Source: Burkholderiales bacterium (GTDB lineage Bacteria; Pseudomonadota; Gammaproteobacteria; Burkholderiales; SHXO01). Taken from it: DNA of 64,000 nt. A program made the translations under genes and the position numbers. The stretch is taken from positions 133,805 to 197,804 of the forward strand of contig JADZGB010000022.1 in NCBI GenBank assembly GCA_020854105.1, in the 5' to 3' direction. The notes beneath the pieces are model-generated. The model was given only the letters and a program-made list of their open reading frames with translations. It did not search any database and was not told the DNA's origin. The first letter of the stretch is position 1, and each line of letters opens with the position of its first letter. This document shows, piece by piece, positions 35,460-52,099 of this stretch.

Positions 35460-38017
<2,558 letters not shown>

Positions 38018-38727: not shown

Positions 38728-39189
38728 TCAGTTCCACAACGGGCCGATCGCGTCGAGGGTGTTCTTCAACACCAGGCCGTACTCCGTGTCGCCCTCCATG
38801 ACCAGGGCCTGTTCGAAGAACAGCCGGTCGGCATCGTCCCGGCCCCGCACCAGCCGCCACAGCGCATCGGCGCGGGCGCGGATCACCAGAGCCGGCGCTG
38901 CGGCGCCCGCCGCGACGGCAAAGCCGCCCATGTCCAGCTGCAGGCGCACGCGCACGCCCGCTTCGATCACTTCGACCTCCACGACACGGCCCGCCAGTGC
39001 CTGCCGCTGACCGGCATCCAGCCGAGGCAGCAGCACGCGATCGAGAACGCGGGCAACGACGAAGGAAGGCGGCTCGACCGGAAGTCGGCGCACGATCGCG
39101 CGCAGGCCGGTGGCGGCGCGCAGCAGGAAGGGGGACAGCGCCGCCATCGGTGCGCTGTGCAACAGATCGCCAGGTCCGGGCCGGTTCAT
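38728..39189 (-). CDS. ubiT: UbiT, SCP2-domain ubiquinone biosynthesis factor
   Basis: 153 residues with an SCP2 lipid-binding domain (about 50-140; the middle is VEVIEAGVRVRLQLDMGGFAV, ends only quoted for orientation) and the end LFFEQALVMEGDTEYGLVLK. UbiT accompanies UbiU and UbiV in oxygen-independent ubiquinone synthesis, probably handling the hydrophobic quinone precursors. The ATG at 39187-39189 overlaps the ubiV stop by four bases (ATGA). Together with the next two genes it forms the ubiU-ubiV-ubiT operon. Confidence 0.92.
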   Translation of the reverse strand: MNRPGPGDLLHSAPMAALSPFLLRAATGLRAIVRRLPVEPPSFVVARVLDRVLLPRLDAGQRQALAGRVVEVEVIEAGVRVRLQLDMGGFAVAAGAAAPALVIRARADALWRLVRGRDDADRLFFEQALVMEGDTEYGLVLKNTLDAIGPLWN

Positions 39190-40133
39190 CGCAACATCTC
39201 CTCGCGCAGGGTCATGCCCGCCCGGCCGTGTGCGAAGCCGTCGACCGGCACGCCGGGCAGGCGCAGGGCGGCGAGTTCCGCACGCGCGTCGGCAGCCGGC
39301 ACCCCCCGGTTGTACACGGCGTCGAACAGCCGCAGCACGGCCCCGAAGTCCTCGGAGCACGGCGACAGGCGCACGCTCGAGACACCGCACTCGCGCAGAA
39401 GGTGCGCCTGGCCGAGCAGACAGTGCAATGCTGCCGACTGCGTCTGGATGCCGTTGAGCGCCAGGAACGGCTGCCCCTCGGCGGAGGACAGCAGCAGACC
39501 GTCGGCATCGTCCCGGCAGCGGAACTCGCACACGTCCTTCGCCAGCCGGTGGTGGCGCGCCGTGAAGCAGCGCGCGGAAAAGGCCAGCGGAAGCCGTCCG
39601 AATCCGAACACCTCGGTGGTCAGCTCGCCCGCGGGCCCTCCGACGCGCGCCTCGGGCGGATTCACGCACTGGACCGCATCGAGCGCGAGCTCCACCGGTG
39701 CGATCCACCGCCCCGCGCCCAGCGCCGCGTACTCGGCCAGTGCTGCCCGGCTGTAGATGTTCACGTGCGGACCGAGCCAGAACGGCTGCCGCGCAGGGTG
39801 TACGGCATGATGCCGCGCCAGCAGGCGGACGGCCGAGGCATCGCCCGCCTCCACCGCGAATTCGTCCTGCTCGGCCAGGCGGCGCAGCGTGCGCAGCTCG
39901 GACTCGCTCATCACCAGTGCCTGCGTGGCGAGCACCACCCGCTTGCCCGCACGCGCCAGGTCGCGTGCCAGGTCGAGCCAGTCCTCCGTCCTGAACTCGT
40001 TGCGTCGCGAGCACACCACCTCTCCCAGCACGACGGTGGATGCCGGGCTCTCGGCGACGTCCGCATAGAAGGAGACGGTTGCCGCACGCGGCCACCAGTA
40101 AAGCAGCGGCCCGACGGTGAGTTCCAATGTCAT
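39186..40133 (-). CDS. ubiV: UbiV, Fe-S U32-peptidase-like hydroxylation factor
   Basis: 315 residues of the U32 peptidase-like family. Cysteines expected to bind the [4Fe-4S] cluster are in EVVCSRRNEF and in the ARCFTARHHRLAKDVCEFRC group. With UbiU it forms the complex that hydroxylates ubiquinone precursors without O2, using prephenate as oxygen donor in E. coli. I use the ATG at 40131-40133, which makes an ATGA overlap with ubiU; an ATG six bases upstream is equally in frame. Confidence 0.93.
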   Translation of the reverse strand: MTLELTVGPLLYWWPRAATVSFYADVAESPASTVVLGEVVCSRRNEFRTEDWLDLARDLARAGKRVVLATQALVMSESELRTLRRLAEQDEFAVEAGDASAVRLLARHHAVHPARQPFWLGPHVNIYSRAALAEYAALGAGRWIAPVELALDAVQCVNPPEARVGGPAGELTTEVFGFGRLPLAFSARCFTARHHRLAKDVCEFRCRDDADGLLLSSAEGQPFLALNGIQTQSAALHCLLGQAHLLRECGVSSVRLSPCSEDFGAVLRLFDAVYNRGVPAADARAELAALRLPGVPVDGFAHGRAGMTLREEMLR

Positions 40134-41143
40134 CGCCATGGCCGGTCGTAGGCACCCAGGGTGTGCTGCTGACCTTCGGCCCAGCGGGACAGCTGGGCCG
40201 TCCACGCCGGCTGGACGGAATAGCGCGACCCGGAGGCAGCCTGATCGATCGCCGCGCGCCAGACGCGGGTCACCTCGGCGACGTAACTCGGGCTGCGCTG
40301 CCGACCCTCGATCTTGATGGCCTTGATGCCCGCCTCGAGGAGCTGCGGCAGGATGGCGAGCGTGTTCAGGCTGGCCGGCTCCTCGATCGCGTAGTCGCGT
40401 TCACCGCCGACCTCGAAGCGGCCCTTGCACAGCGTGGGATAGCCGCGCGCCTCGCCAGGCGCGTAGCGGTCGATCAGCACGCCGCTCAGCCGCGCCTCCA
40501 CGCCGGCTGCGGTGTCCTCCCAGCGCACGGCCGAGGGAGGCGAGCACACTCCTGCCGTGTTCGGCGACTGGCCGGTCACGTAGGACGACAGCGCACATCG
40601 TCCCTCCACCATGACGCACAGGCTGCCGAAGCCGAACACCTCGATCTCGACACGCGTATGCCGGATCAGCTGCTGCACCTGCGCCAGGGTGAGCACGCGC
40701 GGCAGGACCGCGCGCTGGACGCCGTAGCGCTCACGGTAGAATTCGATCGCCTCGTAGGTAGTCGCGGAGGCCTGTACCGACAGGTGCAGACGCAGGTCAG
40801 GATGGCGATCGCGGGCGTAGGCCAGCACCGCGGCATCCGCGACGATCAGGGCATCGGCACCGACGTCGGCCGCATGGTCCACCGCATGCAGCCAGGGGCC
40901 GGGATCGCGTGCGTCGGCGTACGTGTTCAGTGCCATGAGCACCGCGCGGCCGCGCGCGTGCGCGTAGCGCACACCTTCGCGCACCTGGGTGTCGTCGAAG
41001 TTCAGACCGGCGAAGTTGCGCGCGTTCGTGGCATCCTTCAGCCCCAGGTAGACCGCGTCGGCGCCGGCATCGATGGCCATCTGCAGCGCGCGCAGCGAAC
41101 CGGCCGGGCACACCAGCTGAGGTGCGCCGTTGGTTTCACCCAT
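40130..41143 (-). CDS. ubiU: UbiU, Fe-S U32-peptidase-like hydroxylation factor
   Basis: 337 residues, U32 family: LVCPAGSLRALQMAIDAGAD, AVYLGLKDATNARNFAGLNF, and the four cluster cysteines in GSLCVMVEGRCALSS, NTAGVCSPP and YPTLCKGRF. EAGIKAIKIEGRQRSPSYV is the characteristic late motif. Partner of UbiV. First gene of the ubiUVT operon; the ATG is at 41141-41143. Confidence 0.94.
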   Translation of the reverse strand: MGETNGAPQLVCPAGSLRALQMAIDAGADAVYLGLKDATNARNFAGLNFDDTQVREGVRYAHARGRAVLMALNTYADARDPGPWLHAVDHAADVGADALIVADAAVLAYARDRHPDLRLHLSVQASATTYEAIEFYRERYGVQRAVLPRVLTLAQVQQLIRHTRVEIEVFGFGSLCVMVEGRCALSSYVTGQSPNTAGVCSPPSAVRWEDTAAGVEARLSGVLIDRYAPGEARGYPTLCKGRFEVGGERDYAIEEPASLNTLAILPQLLEAGIKAIKIEGRQRSPSYVAEVTRVWRAAIDQAASGSRYSVQPAWTAQLSRWAEGQQHTLGAYDRPWR

Positions 41144-41969: not shown

Positions 41970-44900
41970 ATGGAGTACGTCATCATTGCCGGCGCGATCG
42001 CGCTGATCTTTCTTCTCGCTGCGCGTTCCCTGAAAGAGATGGGGCGGCGCGCACGAACGCAGGCGAACGGCGCCGCCGCCGGCGGCGATACGCCAGCCAC
42101 GACAGTCGCCGCGGGGGGCGAAAACGCAGAAGACAAGCCGCAGACATCCGTCGAGCCGCCCCCCTCGGCCACGCTGCAGGATCTGGCCAGCACCCTGGAG
42201 CCGGCATACGAGAGCAGCGGACATCCCGAGGTACTGACACAGCACCCGGCCTTCCGGCGCGGGGTGGAACTGCTGCGCGATCCGGCGACACCGCTGGATC
42301 TGGTCATCGACGGCTGCATCGGCGCCAATGTGCAGGTTGCCGCGATGGCAGCCGCGGCGCTGCGCGAGCGCGAGGACAGCGCGCTCGCCGTTCCCGACAT
42401 CGTCGACTACGTGCGGCACGCGAACGTGTGGACGCTGTTCTTCATCCTGCGCTTCCTGGCGTTGCGTGCGCGCGAACCGGTGGTGGCGCGGGTGCTGCTG
42501 CAGGTGCGCGAATGGTGGCCGCGCAATCCGCTGCTCATGCGCTTCCTGGCCGAGTTCGTGGATGCCCGCATCGCCATTGGCGAGCGGGTCGACCTGCGCG
42601 GCACGCTGGCCGAGCACGGCTGCGAGCAGCCGGCGGAACTGGCGATGGTGCTGTCGCGGCTGTCACCGCCCCATGCCGACGATCTGCGCGTACAGCAGCA
42701 GCGCTTCGAACGCGAACGTGTCGATGTCGTCTTCCTGTCCGGCATCGGCCGCATATGGCGCGAGGACAACTGTGCCGGCGCGCTGCTCACGCCTGCGTTC
42801 GAGACCGGCATGGGCGCAGCGCTCACCGTCCTGCATGCCCGGCCGCCGCAATCGCTGCTGGTGGTCGGCGAACCGGGCGTGGGCAAGACCAGTTTCGTGC
42901 GCTGCCTCGCGCAGCGGCTCATTGCGCAGGGCTGGACCCTGTTCGAAGCTTCGGCTGCCGAGATCATTGCCGGCCAGGCCTACATAGGCGATCTCGAAGG
43001 GCGCATGCACGGCCTGCTCGCCGCGGTAGGCAGCGAGAGGCGCGTGCTGTGGTACATCCCGGCCTTTCACGAAACGCATTTCGCCGGCCGGCACCGCTAC
43101 AGCCCTACCGGGCTGCTGGACCTGATGCTGCCCGCGATCGAAAGCGGGCGCGTGTGCATCCTGGGGGAGACGCATCCCGCTTCGCTCGAGAAACTGCTGC
43201 AGCAGCGCCCGCGGCTGCGCAACCTGATGCAGACCCTGCGCCTGGAGCCCGCCTCCACCGCCGAGACGCTCGCCCTGGCCGCTCGCGTGTTCCCGCAGCA
43301 CGGACCGGATGCGGCCGTCGAGCCCGGGCTGCTGGAGGAAGCACTGGAACTCGCGCGCAACTATCTGACTGCCCTCGTGCCGCCGGGCAATGTACTGGAC
43401 CTGCTGCGCCAGACGCGCGTCCTCCTACCACGCGGCGGCGGTGCACCGCCGATCGGGCGGGAGGAACTGCTGGCCGCCGTCGTGCGTTTCACCGGCCTGC
43501 CGCAGGCAGTGGTCGACGAGCGCGAAGGGCTGGACGCGGCCGGCCTGCGCACCTTCCTGCAGCGCCGTGTCATGGGCCAGCCGGAAGCAGTGTCCTGCCT
43601 GGTCGACCGCATCGCCATGCTCAAGGCCGGTCTGACCGATCCGCGCCGTCCGATCGGCGTGTTCCTGTTCGCCGGCCCCACCGGCACGGGCAAGACCGAG
43701 GTCGCGAAGACGCTCGCGGAGTACCTGTTCGGATCGACCGAACGCATGATCCGGCTGGACATGAGTGAGTTTCAGGAACCGCACTCTCTCTCGCGCATCC
43801 TTGGCGATGCCGGCGAGGATGGCGAGACGCAGTCACTCGTCACGCGCATCCGCCGGCAACCGTTCTCGGTGCTGCTGCTGGACGAGTTCGAGAAGGCGCA
43901 TCCGCGCATCTGGGACCTGTTCCTGCAGGTGTTCGACGACGGCCGCCTCACCGACGCTCAGGGCAACCTGGCCGACTTCCGGCACTGCATCGTCATCCTC
44001 ACCTCCAACCTCGGCGCCACCGAGCATCGCGGAACCAGTCTGGGCTTCACGCGCGGCGAGGGCGATTTCGGCGGCGGGCAGATCCTGCGCGCGATCGCCG
44101 CGACCTTCCGTCCGGAGTTCGTCAACCGCATCGACCGGGTGGTGGTATTCCGGCCCCTGTCGAGAAGCGTGATGCGCGACATCCTGCGCAAGGAATTGCG
44201 CGCCGTGCTCGAGCGCCGCGGCTTCCGCAACCGCGACTGGGCGGTGGAATGGGAAGAGTCGGCCATCGAGTTCCTGCTCGACCGGGGTTTCACGCGCGAC
44301 ATGGGCGCACGTCCCCTGCGCCGGGCGATCGACGAGCACGTGCTGGCGCCGATTGCAATGACCATCGTGGAGAACCGCTTCCCCGAAGGTGACCAGTTCC
44401 TGTTCGTGCGCGGGGCTGCCGATCGCATCGAGGTCGAGTTCGTCGATCCCGACGCGCCCGCCGATGCAGCGGCTCCGGCAGCGCACGACGGACTGTCGTA
44501 TGCGCGCATCATTCTCTCGCCGGGCGGGAGCAGACAGGAGCGCGCATTCCTCGAGGACGGCCATGCAGGCCTGCAGGCGCGCATCGAAGCGCCTGCCTGG
44601 ACGGCGCGCAAGCAGGAACTGCTGCAGGCGATGGCGCACGGGGGATTCTGGGACGACCCCGACCGGCACGCCGTCCTGGCCGCGCTGGAGAATCTCGACA
44701 GCATCGAGGCGGGACTGGCCAATGCGCAATCGCTGGCGCGCCGTCTGCAGGCGCGCCCGGGGCAGGCCGGCGTACCGGTGTCGATACTGGGCAATCTCGC
44801 GCAGCAGCTGTGCTTGATCGAACGGGCATTCGCCGACCACGACGCCACCCTCGCTCCCGAGGTCTTCGTGGGCATCGACATGGTGGCCGAGGATTCCGGC

Positions 44901-45347
44901 AATGCCGCGGCCGCACGGCGCTGGAGCGAGCGCGTCATGGACATGTACCGCGACTGGGCCCGCAAACGGCGAGTGCGCTTCACCATGCTGCGCACCGATT
45001 CGGGCGGCGATGACACCGGACACATCGCCGCCGTCGTCGGCTTCGGCGTGCACGGCGTCCTGGCGCGCGAGGCCGGCATGCACGTGTGGGAGACGCCGGA
45101 CCTGCACGGCGGCTTCGACCGCTGCACCGCGCGCGTGCGCGTTGTCGCCCAGCCCGCCCAGCCGCTTCCACCCGGCCGCGACGCGGCGGCATTCGCGGCG
45201 CAGTGCCTCGCCGCCGCCCGGTCCGGCACCACCATCGTGCGTCGCTACCGGGAGCAGCCCTCGCCCCTGGTGCGCGATGCCGTGGCCGGTTGGCGCACCG
45301 GGCGCCTGGATCAGGTGCTGGGCGGGGACTTCGACCTGGTCGCCTGA
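41970..45347 (+). CDS. Membrane-anchored Clp-type AAA+ protein fused to GGQ-less RF2 remnant
   Basis: 1125 residues. One N-terminal helix (about 3-21, YVIIAGAIALIFLLAARSL), then a low-complexity linker and a helical region. AAA domain 1 has Walker A GEPGVGKTS at 300-308, but the Walker B place reads LWYIPAFHE without the acidic pair. AAA domain 2 is ClpA/B-D2-like: GPTGTGKTE (569-577), VLLLDEFEKAHP (Asp638-Glu639), TSNLGATEHRG and GFTRDMGARPLRRAI. Residues about 870-1059 follow the release factor 2 PCRF domain: WTARKQELLQAM, GGFWDDP (891-897), then VFVGIDMVAEDSG to about 1059. The last 38 residues resemble the RF2 C-terminus (VLGGDFD like VLDGxLD). The segment with the GGQ domain is missing, and the SPF codon-reading tripeptide is not kept. 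Function unknown. Confidence 0.88.
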   Translation: MEYVIIAGAIALIFLLAARSLKEMGRRARTQANGAAAGGDTPATTVAAGGENAEDKPQTSVEPPPSATLQDLASTLEPAYESSGHPEVLTQHPAFRRGVELLRDPATPLDLVIDGCIGANVQVAAMAAAALREREDSALAVPDIVDYVRHANVWTLFFILRFLALRAREPVVARVLLQVREWWPRNPLLMRFLAEFVDARIAIGERVDLRGTLAEHGCEQPAELAMVLSRLSPPHADDLRVQQQRFERERVDVVFLSGIGRIWREDNCAGALLTPAFETGMGAALTVLHARPPQSLLVVGEPGVGKTSFVRCLAQRLIAQGWTLFEASAAEIIAGQAYIGDLEGRMHGLLAAVGSERRVLWYIPAFHETHFAGRHRYSPTGLLDLMLPAIESGRVCILGETHPASLEKLLQQRPRLRNLMQTLRLEPASTAETLALAARVFPQHGPDAAVEPGLLEEALELARNYLTALVPPGNVLDLLRQTRVLLPRGGGAPPIGREELLAAVVRFTGLPQAVVDEREGLDAAGLRTFLQRRVMGQPEAVSCLVDRIAMLKAGLTDPRRPIGVFLFAGPTGTGKTEVAKTLAEYLFGSTERMIRLDMSEFQEPHSLSRILGDAGEDGETQSLVTRIRRQPFSVLLLDEFEKAHPRIWDLFLQVFDDGRLTDAQGNLADFRHCIVILTSNLGATEHRGTSLGFTRGEGDFGGGQILRAIAATFRPEFVNRIDRVVVFRPLSRSVMRDILRKELRAVLERRGFRNRDWAVEWEESAIEFLLDRGFTRDMGARPLRRAIDEHVLAPIAMTIVENRFPEGDQFLFVRGAADRIEVEFVDPDAPADAAAPAAHDGLSYARIILSPGGSRQERAFLEDGHAGLQARIEAPAWTARKQELLQAMAHGGFWDDPDRHAVLAALENLDSIEAGLANAQSLARRLQARPGQAGVPVSILGNLAQQLCLIERAFADHDATLAPEVFVGIDMVAEDSGNAAAARRWSERVMDMYRDWARKRRVRFTMLRTDSGGDDTGHIAAVVGFGVHGVLAREAGMHVWETPDLHGGFDRCTARVRVVAQPAQPLPPGRDAAAFAAQCLAAARSGTTIVRRYREQPSPLVRDAVAGWRTGRLDQVLGGDFDLVA

Positions 45348-45413: not shown

Positions 45414-46046
45414 TCAGCGCGAGCGCGGCTTGAACGGCCCGCGGCCACGCCAGTACTGGATCAGGAAGTAGCCGGCGACCATCCCCCCGAGATGGGCGAA
45501 ATGGGCGACCCCCTGCTGGGTCCCGGTCACCCCGAGATAGAGCTCTATCCCCCCGTACAGTGTCACGAACAGCCAGGCCGGCATCGGGATCGGCGGGAAG
45601 ATCAGCATGATGATGCGACGTGGATACATCATGCCGAAGGCGAGCAGCAGCCCGAACACACCGCCCGATGCACCCAGCGTCGGATAGGGCGGGCCGGTCT
45701 GCAGCCCGGTGACGAGCAGCTGCGCGAGGGCGGCGCCGACGATGCATGCCAGGTAGTAGATCAGGTAGCGGCGCTCGCCCCACACCCGTTCGATCTCGCC
45801 CCCGAACATGTACAGCGCGAACATGTTGAACAGCAGGTGCGTGAAGCCGCCGTGCAGGAAGCCGTAGGTGAGGATCTGCCAGGGCTGGAAGTTGCCCCAG
45901 CCGCGCACCTCGTACCCGCTGGCCAGCTGCGGCGGCCACAGCGCGAACACCGACACGATCCAGTCTCCCAGCAGCATCTGCGCGAGGAAGACGGTGACAT
46001 TGACGACGATCAGGGTCTGGGTGAGAGGCGGAACAGCGGGGAACAT
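45414..46046 (-). CDS. Rhomboid-family intramembrane serine protease
   Basis: 210 residues with six predicted helices. Catalytic Ser in TLGASGGVFGLLLAFG and catalytic His in VAHFAHLGGMVAGYF; the HGGFTHLLFNMFALYMFG helix carries the oxyanion His/Asn. Rhomboids cleave single-pass membrane proteins inside the bilayer. It converges on the AAA+/release-factor fusion, whose single N-terminal helix could in principle be a substrate; that is speculation. ATG at 46044-46046. Confidence 0.93.
   Translation of the reverse strand: MFPAVPPLTQTLIVVNVTVFLAQMLLGDWIVSVFALWPPQLASGYEVRGWGNFQPWQILTYGFLHGGFTHLLFNMFALYMFGGEIERVWGERRYLIYYLACIVGAALAQLLVTGLQTGPPYPTLGASGGVFGLLLAFGMMYPRRIIMLIFPPIPMPAWLFVTLYGGIELYLGVTGTQQGVAHFAHLGGMVAGYFLIQYWRGRGPFKPRSR

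Positions 46047-46414: not shown

Positions 46415-52099
<5,685 letters not shown>

Follow-up and report, generated by a model that had tools for sequence, protein, structure and literature searches.

The window, a 64,000-nucleotide stretch of DNA from a Burkholderiales bacterium (GenBank assembly GCA_020854105.1, contig JADZGB010000022.1, positions 133,805 to 197,804 of the forward strand), carries a gene at 41970..45347 (+) whose product joins a Clp-type AAA+ ATPase to a body like that of release factor 2 (RF2). All coordinates given below for parts of this gene are on the same strand. The open reading frame (ORF) starts with ATG and is open throughout, for 1125 residues. A release factor (RF) body is here joined to a Clp-type remodeller, its fold is kept in 11 phylum-level groups, and just its peptide-cutting part has been removed. 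A preliminary description, made from the letters of the sequence, had named both halves, and its observation is confirmed: the protein has two P-loops (residues 300-307 and 569-576) and the Pfam domains AAA_2 and ClpB_D2-small, and its tail matches PCRF and RF2 profiles. Its interpretation, a protein that touches the ribosomal A site but releases no peptide, is partly supported. The reading that we prefer, tentatively, is that the RF2 body docks on the ribosome and that the attached ring remodels.

The AAA+PCRF architecture recurs in other genomes, where the preliminary description proposed to look for it. Residues 850-1125, used as the query, retrieved 158 proteins at E <= 1e-3, mostly of ~1100 aa, and all 120 listed relatives of the 158 have AAA-type Pfam domains; the family counts below, over 112, 119 or 120 members, are drawn from these 120. 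This search admits only proteins of 0.55-1.75x the query length, and it scored the 7995 candidates that shared the most words with the query. Recurrence of the fusion on numerous independent contigs rules out a chimera or an artefact of assembly. A search with the tail alignment, which reaches shorter proteins (7999 candidates scored), gave 51 short matches, 13 of which contain letters of the end of the second AAA+ module (D2). Of five that were inspected, two begin within the AAA end and the remaining three within the tail, and they look like truncated or frameshifted fusions; no stand-alone RF2-body protein was therefore seen among the 51 short matches, most of which are unsettled.

The tail opens with a helical part like RF2 domain 1 (residues 844-960, 44499..44849), with an FW motif, recognized by hidden Markov model alignment to RF2 and in the structural model. 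It is followed by the first part of RF2 domain 2 (961-1060, 44850..45149), in which SPF and GGxE are lost and which is placed by RF2 alignments and by the PCRF match at 982-1038. A 28-residue linker or helix (1061-1088, 45150..45233) replaces the GGQ domain, as judged from its length in the family and from superposition on RF2, and the protein ends with the RF C-terminal strands and helix (1089-1125, 45234..45344), IVRRYREQPSPLVRD...WRTGRLDQVLGGDFD, which family conservation shows to be nearly invariant. The PCRF match to RF2 is real. Against the PDB, the tail profile found RF2 chains at 1.9e-14 over profile positions 13-195, i.e., across domain 1 and into domain 2, and PCRF and prfB were matched by 15 of 15 aligned family tails (matches with E <= 0.1 listed). 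The RF fold and PCRF domain of a class-I release factor are thus present in the family, with the window protein alone falling under the Pfam cut-off for PCRF (18.8 bits against 24); NCBIfam adds a short prfB match. That the last residues are the RF2 C-terminus, as also claimed, is borne out by structure, the tail model (7-280) superposing on RF2 residues 5-357 up to the last residue (267 residues aligned), but hardly by sequence, where single hhalign comparisons of the C-terminal segment with RF gave weak matches (E 9e-4 to 9e-3, probability 4-23%). The proposed exchange of some 100 GGQ-bearing residues for a short linker holds: about 95 residues are absent (362 - 267 aligned), and the replacement stretch, measured over 1060-1088, has a median of 29 residues in the family and a range of 17-32. 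A generic coiled-coil match was rejected, given that the RF2 match covers both domain 1 and the domain 2 start and is joined by the structural superposition.

In RF1 and RF2, GGQ serves peptide cutting, the GGxE and SPF/RHTS regions serve codon reading, and a Trp belongs to the switch loop. SPF or SPY occurs in 0 of 119 family members, so the tripeptide is gone as described, GG[TDSN]E occurs in 1 of 119 and R[HY]T[SA] in 6 of 119, while a Trp in the linker, the place of the RF2 switch loop, is found in 5 of 119. Domain 3, which bears GGQ in class-I release factors, is absent; in only 1 of 119 members does the stretch 961-1087 contain the letters GGQ, and there in a different position, and over the final 290 residues as a whole they occur in 3 of 120. 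Because neither GGQ nor the known stop-codon readers are present, the fusion protein, judged by its sequence, is clearly not a working release factor and should not terminate translation.

What the tail has kept is a C-terminal strip, IVRRYREQPSPLVRD..RGWRTGRLD.VL.GDFD, that is nearly invariant from Pseudomonadota to Planctomycetota; 26 columns are invariant in 38 tails, across phyla. The strip is arginine-rich, with a net charge of +2 to +8, and it and D2 are the two most conserved parts of the fusion protein. One could suppose that this is an ordinary Clp protein whose RF tail has no function and is decaying, given the loss of GGQ, SPF and many RF residues and the rare and patchy occurrence of the fusion, yet an invariant strip would not survive in a tail undergoing decay, and the 26 columns contradict this supposition, which we consider highly improbable. 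Since the strip is nearly invariant while the decoding motifs are lost, the tail does not resemble a remnant in decay: one of its surfaces is strongly constrained, and the decoding surface has been freed.

The same strip bears on the proposal that the RF2 body is an RNA-binding or mRNA-protecting module with no A-site role, like chloroplast PrfB3, and that the ring remodels RNA-bound proteins at the membrane. PrfB3 itself is not known to have an AAA ring. It is nevertheless a precedent, being, according to passages of PMC5897788, an RF2 relative in which SPF and GGQ have been lost and which binds the petB 3' untranslated region, and the fusion tail likewise lacks the codon-reading motifs and carries the nearly invariant arginine-rich strip. 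The invariance of the strip across 11 phylum-level groups, however, argues for an invariant target, and rRNA, tRNA or a ribosomal protein would fit better than assorted mRNAs. We therefore regard such a module as unlikely.

The AAA+ half is of the ClpA/ClpC class in its layout, with two AAA+ modules and a ClpB_D2-small domain after the second. The first, D1 (~275-500, 42792..43469), was recognized by Pfam AAA_16/AAA_22 and a ClpA model (284-801); D2 (510-826, 43497..44447), the best conserved section of the AAA half, was recognized by AAA_2 (1.6e-44), ClpB_D2-small and invariant columns. On the whole protein, the ClpB and ClpA models of NCBIfam stay under their equivalog cut-offs, with TIGR02639, the ClpA equivalog, at 311.6 bits against a curated cut-off of 993. 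The full-length AlphaFold2 (AF2) model has a predicted local distance difference test score (pLDDT) of 89.3 and a predicted template-modelling score (pTM) of 0.63, and its best structural matches are ClpC, ClpA and ClpB chains (among the best 50 of 1611 matches).

The two rings have lost different things. D1 has its Walker A, GEPGVGKT (300-307, 42867..42890), and its pore-1 loop, GQAYIGDLE (335-343, 42972..42998), aligns with GTKYRGDFE of host ClpA and retains the aromatic residue (Y in 80 and F in 26, together 106 of the 112 members with letters there). The D1 Walker B (359-368, 43044..43073) is degenerate and departs from the ClpA/ClpC class, the DE of host ClpA (LFIDEIHT) having given way to P-x, with P364 in 101 of 112. 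D2 retains Walker A (GPTGTGKT, 569-576, 43674..43697), Walker B, sensor, GAR and the arginine finger (segment RPEFVNRID, 714-722, 44109..44135). Its pore-1 loop (611-624, 43800..43841) is short and polar instead of the GYVG of host ClpA and ClpB, which are partial sequences named from size and motifs; any aromatic residue occurs there in 4 of 120 members. Among the window protein and 34 locus proteins, GYVG is present in 0 of 35 and any D2 pore aromatic in 1 of 35, after eight of 43 proteins without a D2 match (seven short ones and L017, of 1106 aa) had been left out. Nearly family-wide, then, the aromatic grip is kept in D1, where Walker B is lost, and lost in D2, where Walker B is kept. This is an odd division of labour, with the grip in the ring expected to hydrolyse ATP poorly and absent from the expected motor ring. 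ATP hydrolysis is predicted to be carried out mainly by D2, and the protein is predicted to form a hexamer. In ClpA, according to passages of PMC9663308, the D2 ring is the main motor, the D2 GYVG and D1 KYR tyrosines touch the substrate, and the IGL loop sits between ClpP subunits. The label "unfoldase" should be used with caution for this Clp-type two-ring AAA+ protein, as D2 is without a pore-1 aromatic in 116 of 120 members and D1 without Walker B acids.

The tripeptide LGF (691-693, 44040..44048) lies, by alignment and model, in a flexible D2 loop at the position of the ClpP-docking loop. Loops of the [IVL]GF/L type dock ClpP in ClpA and ClpX. LGF aligns with IGF of host ClpA and has no counterpart in host ClpB; the loop region, 686-696, has a pLDDT < 50 in the model. 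Its G is found in 120 of 120 members and its F in 119 of 120, and [LIVT]GF is found in 29 of 35 proteins, the other six, all from Lysobacteraceae loci, having PGF (five) or AGF (one). ClpP docking through this loop is predicted on these grounds, and the genome of the window encodes one ClpP and, by size, ClpA, ClpB and ClpX. An alternative role for the RF2 body is that of a protein adaptor or built-in ring part, in which the strip would contact ClpP, a membrane substrate or the D2 ring of the same protein, with no ribosomes involved. The tail is fused behind D2, at what in ClpA is the ClpP-facing end, D2 and the strip stand out in conservation, the decoding residues are lost, and the neighbouring genes have no translation theme. 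Such a role would leave the retention of the whole RF2 fold, domain 1 included, unexplained, and we hold it to be rather doubtful.

A membrane location, also suggested in the preliminary description, is likely. Hydropathy and a helix at 2-34 in the model indicate an N-terminal transmembrane helix (1-25, 41970..42044) whose C-terminal side is predicted to be cytoplasmic. By hydropathy, 83 of 96 members of at least 1090 aa have an N-terminal hydrophobic stretch, whose flanking charge is more positive on the C-terminal than on the N-terminal side in 81 of the 83; the protein is for this reason predicted to be anchored in the inner membrane with a cytoplasmic body. The helical N-terminal domain that follows (66-260, 42165..42749), delimited in the AF2 model, was seen in the fusion family only. 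A search with residues 60-290 gave 14 proteins of 1035-1268 aa, with AAA domains in them, of which 13 show the RF2-like tail or part of it; the end letters of P0122 look out of frame.

If the RF2 body does dock on the ribosome, then without GGQ it would be a docking module that brings an inner-membrane-anchored ring to ribosomes without peptide release. Up to six RF2 bodies would hang at the D2 side of a hexamer, and one might enter or probe the factor-binding or A site where a ribosome, perhaps one bound to the membrane, has stalled, or might bind the ribosome's RNA, with the arginine-rich strip making the contact. Next, the ring would act on a protein bound to the ribosome, remodelling or removing it, with D1 tyrosines gripping and D2 powering, and might hand the removed protein over to ClpP. 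None of the domains reaches the peptidyl-transferase centre, so the fusion protein would act before or beside peptide release, like Dom34/Pelota in archaea and eukaryotes, and not as a terminator. Here we infer both the ribosome as the target and what is remodelled. Nascent chains exit the large subunit on the side far from the A-site entrance, and the nascent-chain extraction once suggested is therefore geometrically doubtful for a machine at that entrance. A more specific version, a single-chain bacterial ribosome-clearing machine in which the RF2 body probes stalled membrane-bound ribosomes without hydrolysis and ring and ClpP strip off and destroy stuck material, seems to us improbable as a whole, though not strongly so; if true, the machine would be an independently evolved bacterial counterpart of Pelota- or Vms1-type factors working with Cdc48.

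Several observations weigh against ribosome docking. The domain angle of the tail model is nearer to that of free Escherichia coli RF2 (root mean square deviation 4.8) than to that of ribosome-bound RF2 (7.7-9.6). In an alignment of 12 RF1, 19 RF2 and 35 family tails (three of 38 tails, L020, L032 and L034, and three RF loci, L099, L101 and L104, being left out), 32 positions are RF1/RF2-universal, i.e., at least 85% conserved in each; of these, 13 survive in the family, most of them fold positions, and 19 do not, those of the GGxE and SPF/RHTS regions included. A further 23 positions, mostly in the C-terminal strip, are at least 90% conserved in the family only. This loss of decoding residues counts against A-site or ribosome binding. 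The window tail as a whole is not basic, with a net charge of -1. Threading may be weak or absent, because D2 has no pore-1 aromatic and D1 no Walker B acids, and no translation-linked neighbour common to many clades was found among 45 loci (44 and the window). The lost residues bear equally on a regulator or decoy of termination that would bind RF partners (RF3, the L11 region) or compete with RF1/RF2, slowing release at the membrane. Domain 1 is retained, and GGQ-mutant release factors bind without releasing, but competition would be poor because the decoding residues are lost, and an ATP-driven ring is superfluous for a decoy; we think this quite improbable. Should ribosome docking be true, the protein would, to our knowledge, be the first case in which a bacterial A site is physically and directly connected to a Clp machine, and would represent a new way of rescuing ribosomes, or of quality control, at the membrane; should it not, the fusion would be a striking reuse of a translation factor for another purpose.

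A locus scan with one genome per species gave 44 loci, 39 of which (L004-L042) match at least 238 of 280 tail residues; the other five (L043-L047) match only in part and do not enter the alignments. The isolates Solirubrobacter soli DSM 22325 and Pseudoxanthomonas helianthi are among the carriers. Carriers are sparse: among 60 genomes there were two, the window's own and one of three others in the genus (a match that reaches the contig end), and phylum-wide the fusion was found in 3 of 398 genomes, own included. A tree of 34 proteins spans 11 phylum-level groups, assigned by record title and including many metagenome bins, and mostly follows these labels, with 12 label changes where 10 is the least possible. 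Because the tree clusters by phylum label, the sequences point mostly to ancient inheritance followed by numerous losses; individual transfers and mis-binned contigs of metagenome-assembled genomes are possible. The window's genome has ordinary RF1 and RF2. The fusion was recovered in 15 of 16 genomes reached through the loci, and at least one further RF-like match (frame of 332-458 aa) was present in 15 of 15 fusion genomes, two or more in 12 of 15, with the GAGGQ pattern in 11 of 14 such loci fetched. In a Reyranella sp. (L047, G447:C4:116466-116522) the only tail match found covers the final 19 residues of the conserved strip, within a frame of 29 aa; it may be left over from a gene since lost, or be fortuitous. 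Viral contigs gave no relative with one pattern, and the last 50 residues had no phage match. None of 2285 matching plasmid records covers 80% of the query; among the matches listed, six plasmid records cover 48-51%, the AAA part. A defence system was rejected, as seven PADLOC models match AAA stretches only.

The window gene stands alone, between a DUF3592 gene and, directly downstream and convergent, a rhomboid intramembrane protease gene (45414-46046 (-)). No conserved operon was found among the 45 loci. With the fusion gene and shadow frames set aside, the largest multi-clade neighbour clusters cover 6, 5 and 4 of 45 loci and are common families by eye, the 6-locus cluster biotin-carboxylase-like and the 4-locus cluster kinase-like; a further cluster of 5 (L008 and Solirubrobacter loci) looks like shadow frames. 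The other 5-locus cluster, of a protein that by eye resembles pyridoxal-phosphate enzymes of Cys/Met metabolism (36695-37981 (-) in the window), comprises the window and L005, L026, L036 and L040, 5 of 45 loci; the protein is encoded no more than 10 kb from the fusion, but neither its distance nor its strand is constant. The proximity is probably chance; L026 also has a PALP-CBS gene upstream. Ten chosen upstream ORFs showed no theme in Pfam, four being without a match. In the Lysobacteraceae loci L030, L033, L036, L038 and L040, and in this clade only, the fusion follows a same-strand gene that is mutS-like by eye. The rhomboid gene and the UvrA-like gene beyond it are shared only by L046, a Burkholderiales fragment, of the 45 loci. 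The latter (46415-52099 (+)) encodes 1894 aa with UvrA_DNA-bind at 294-358, UvrA_inter at 1139-1243 and P-loop matches near 661, 1023 and 1562, and looks like two UvrA units in a single chain. On the other side, at 38728-41143 (-), a U32 peptidase-family gene (40130-41143) lies beside a frame ending in an SCP2 domain (38728-40155), a pair reminiscent of the anaerobic ubiquinone genes ubiU/ubiT.

No description of a Clp-RF2-body fusion was found in the open-licence literature searched, in keeping with the preliminary description, and none is given in passages of PMC6514570, on release-factor evolution, or of PMC8012679, on bacterial ribosome rescue. Compared with RF2 (PrfB), the fusion tail lacks the GGQ domain, SPF and GGxE, has a linker of ~29 residues, and stands behind an AAA+ ring. 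PrfH, seen on damaged 70S ribosomes, is not known to be fused to an AAA+ ring, and its match to the fusion tail is far weaker than that of RF2. The protein resembles ClpA/ClpC in its two AAA+ modules, D2 active-site motifs, xGF loop and best structural matches; unlike them, it has lost the D1 Walker B acids and the D2 GYVG and has another N-domain, a predicted anchor and the RF2 tail. PrfB3 of land-plant chloroplasts is likewise an RF2 relative without SPF and GGQ (passages of PMC5897788), but it is a plastid mRNA-binding protein and is not known to have an AAA+ ring. In passages of PMC6514570, Vms1 with Cdc48/p97 couples a release-factor-like body to an AAA+ ATPase, and Dom34/Pelota binds the A site without hydrolysis. 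Both differ from the fusion in belonging to the unrelated aeRF-1 superfamily and in being separate proteins, of eukaryotes and archaea, so that the likeness is a functional analogy only.

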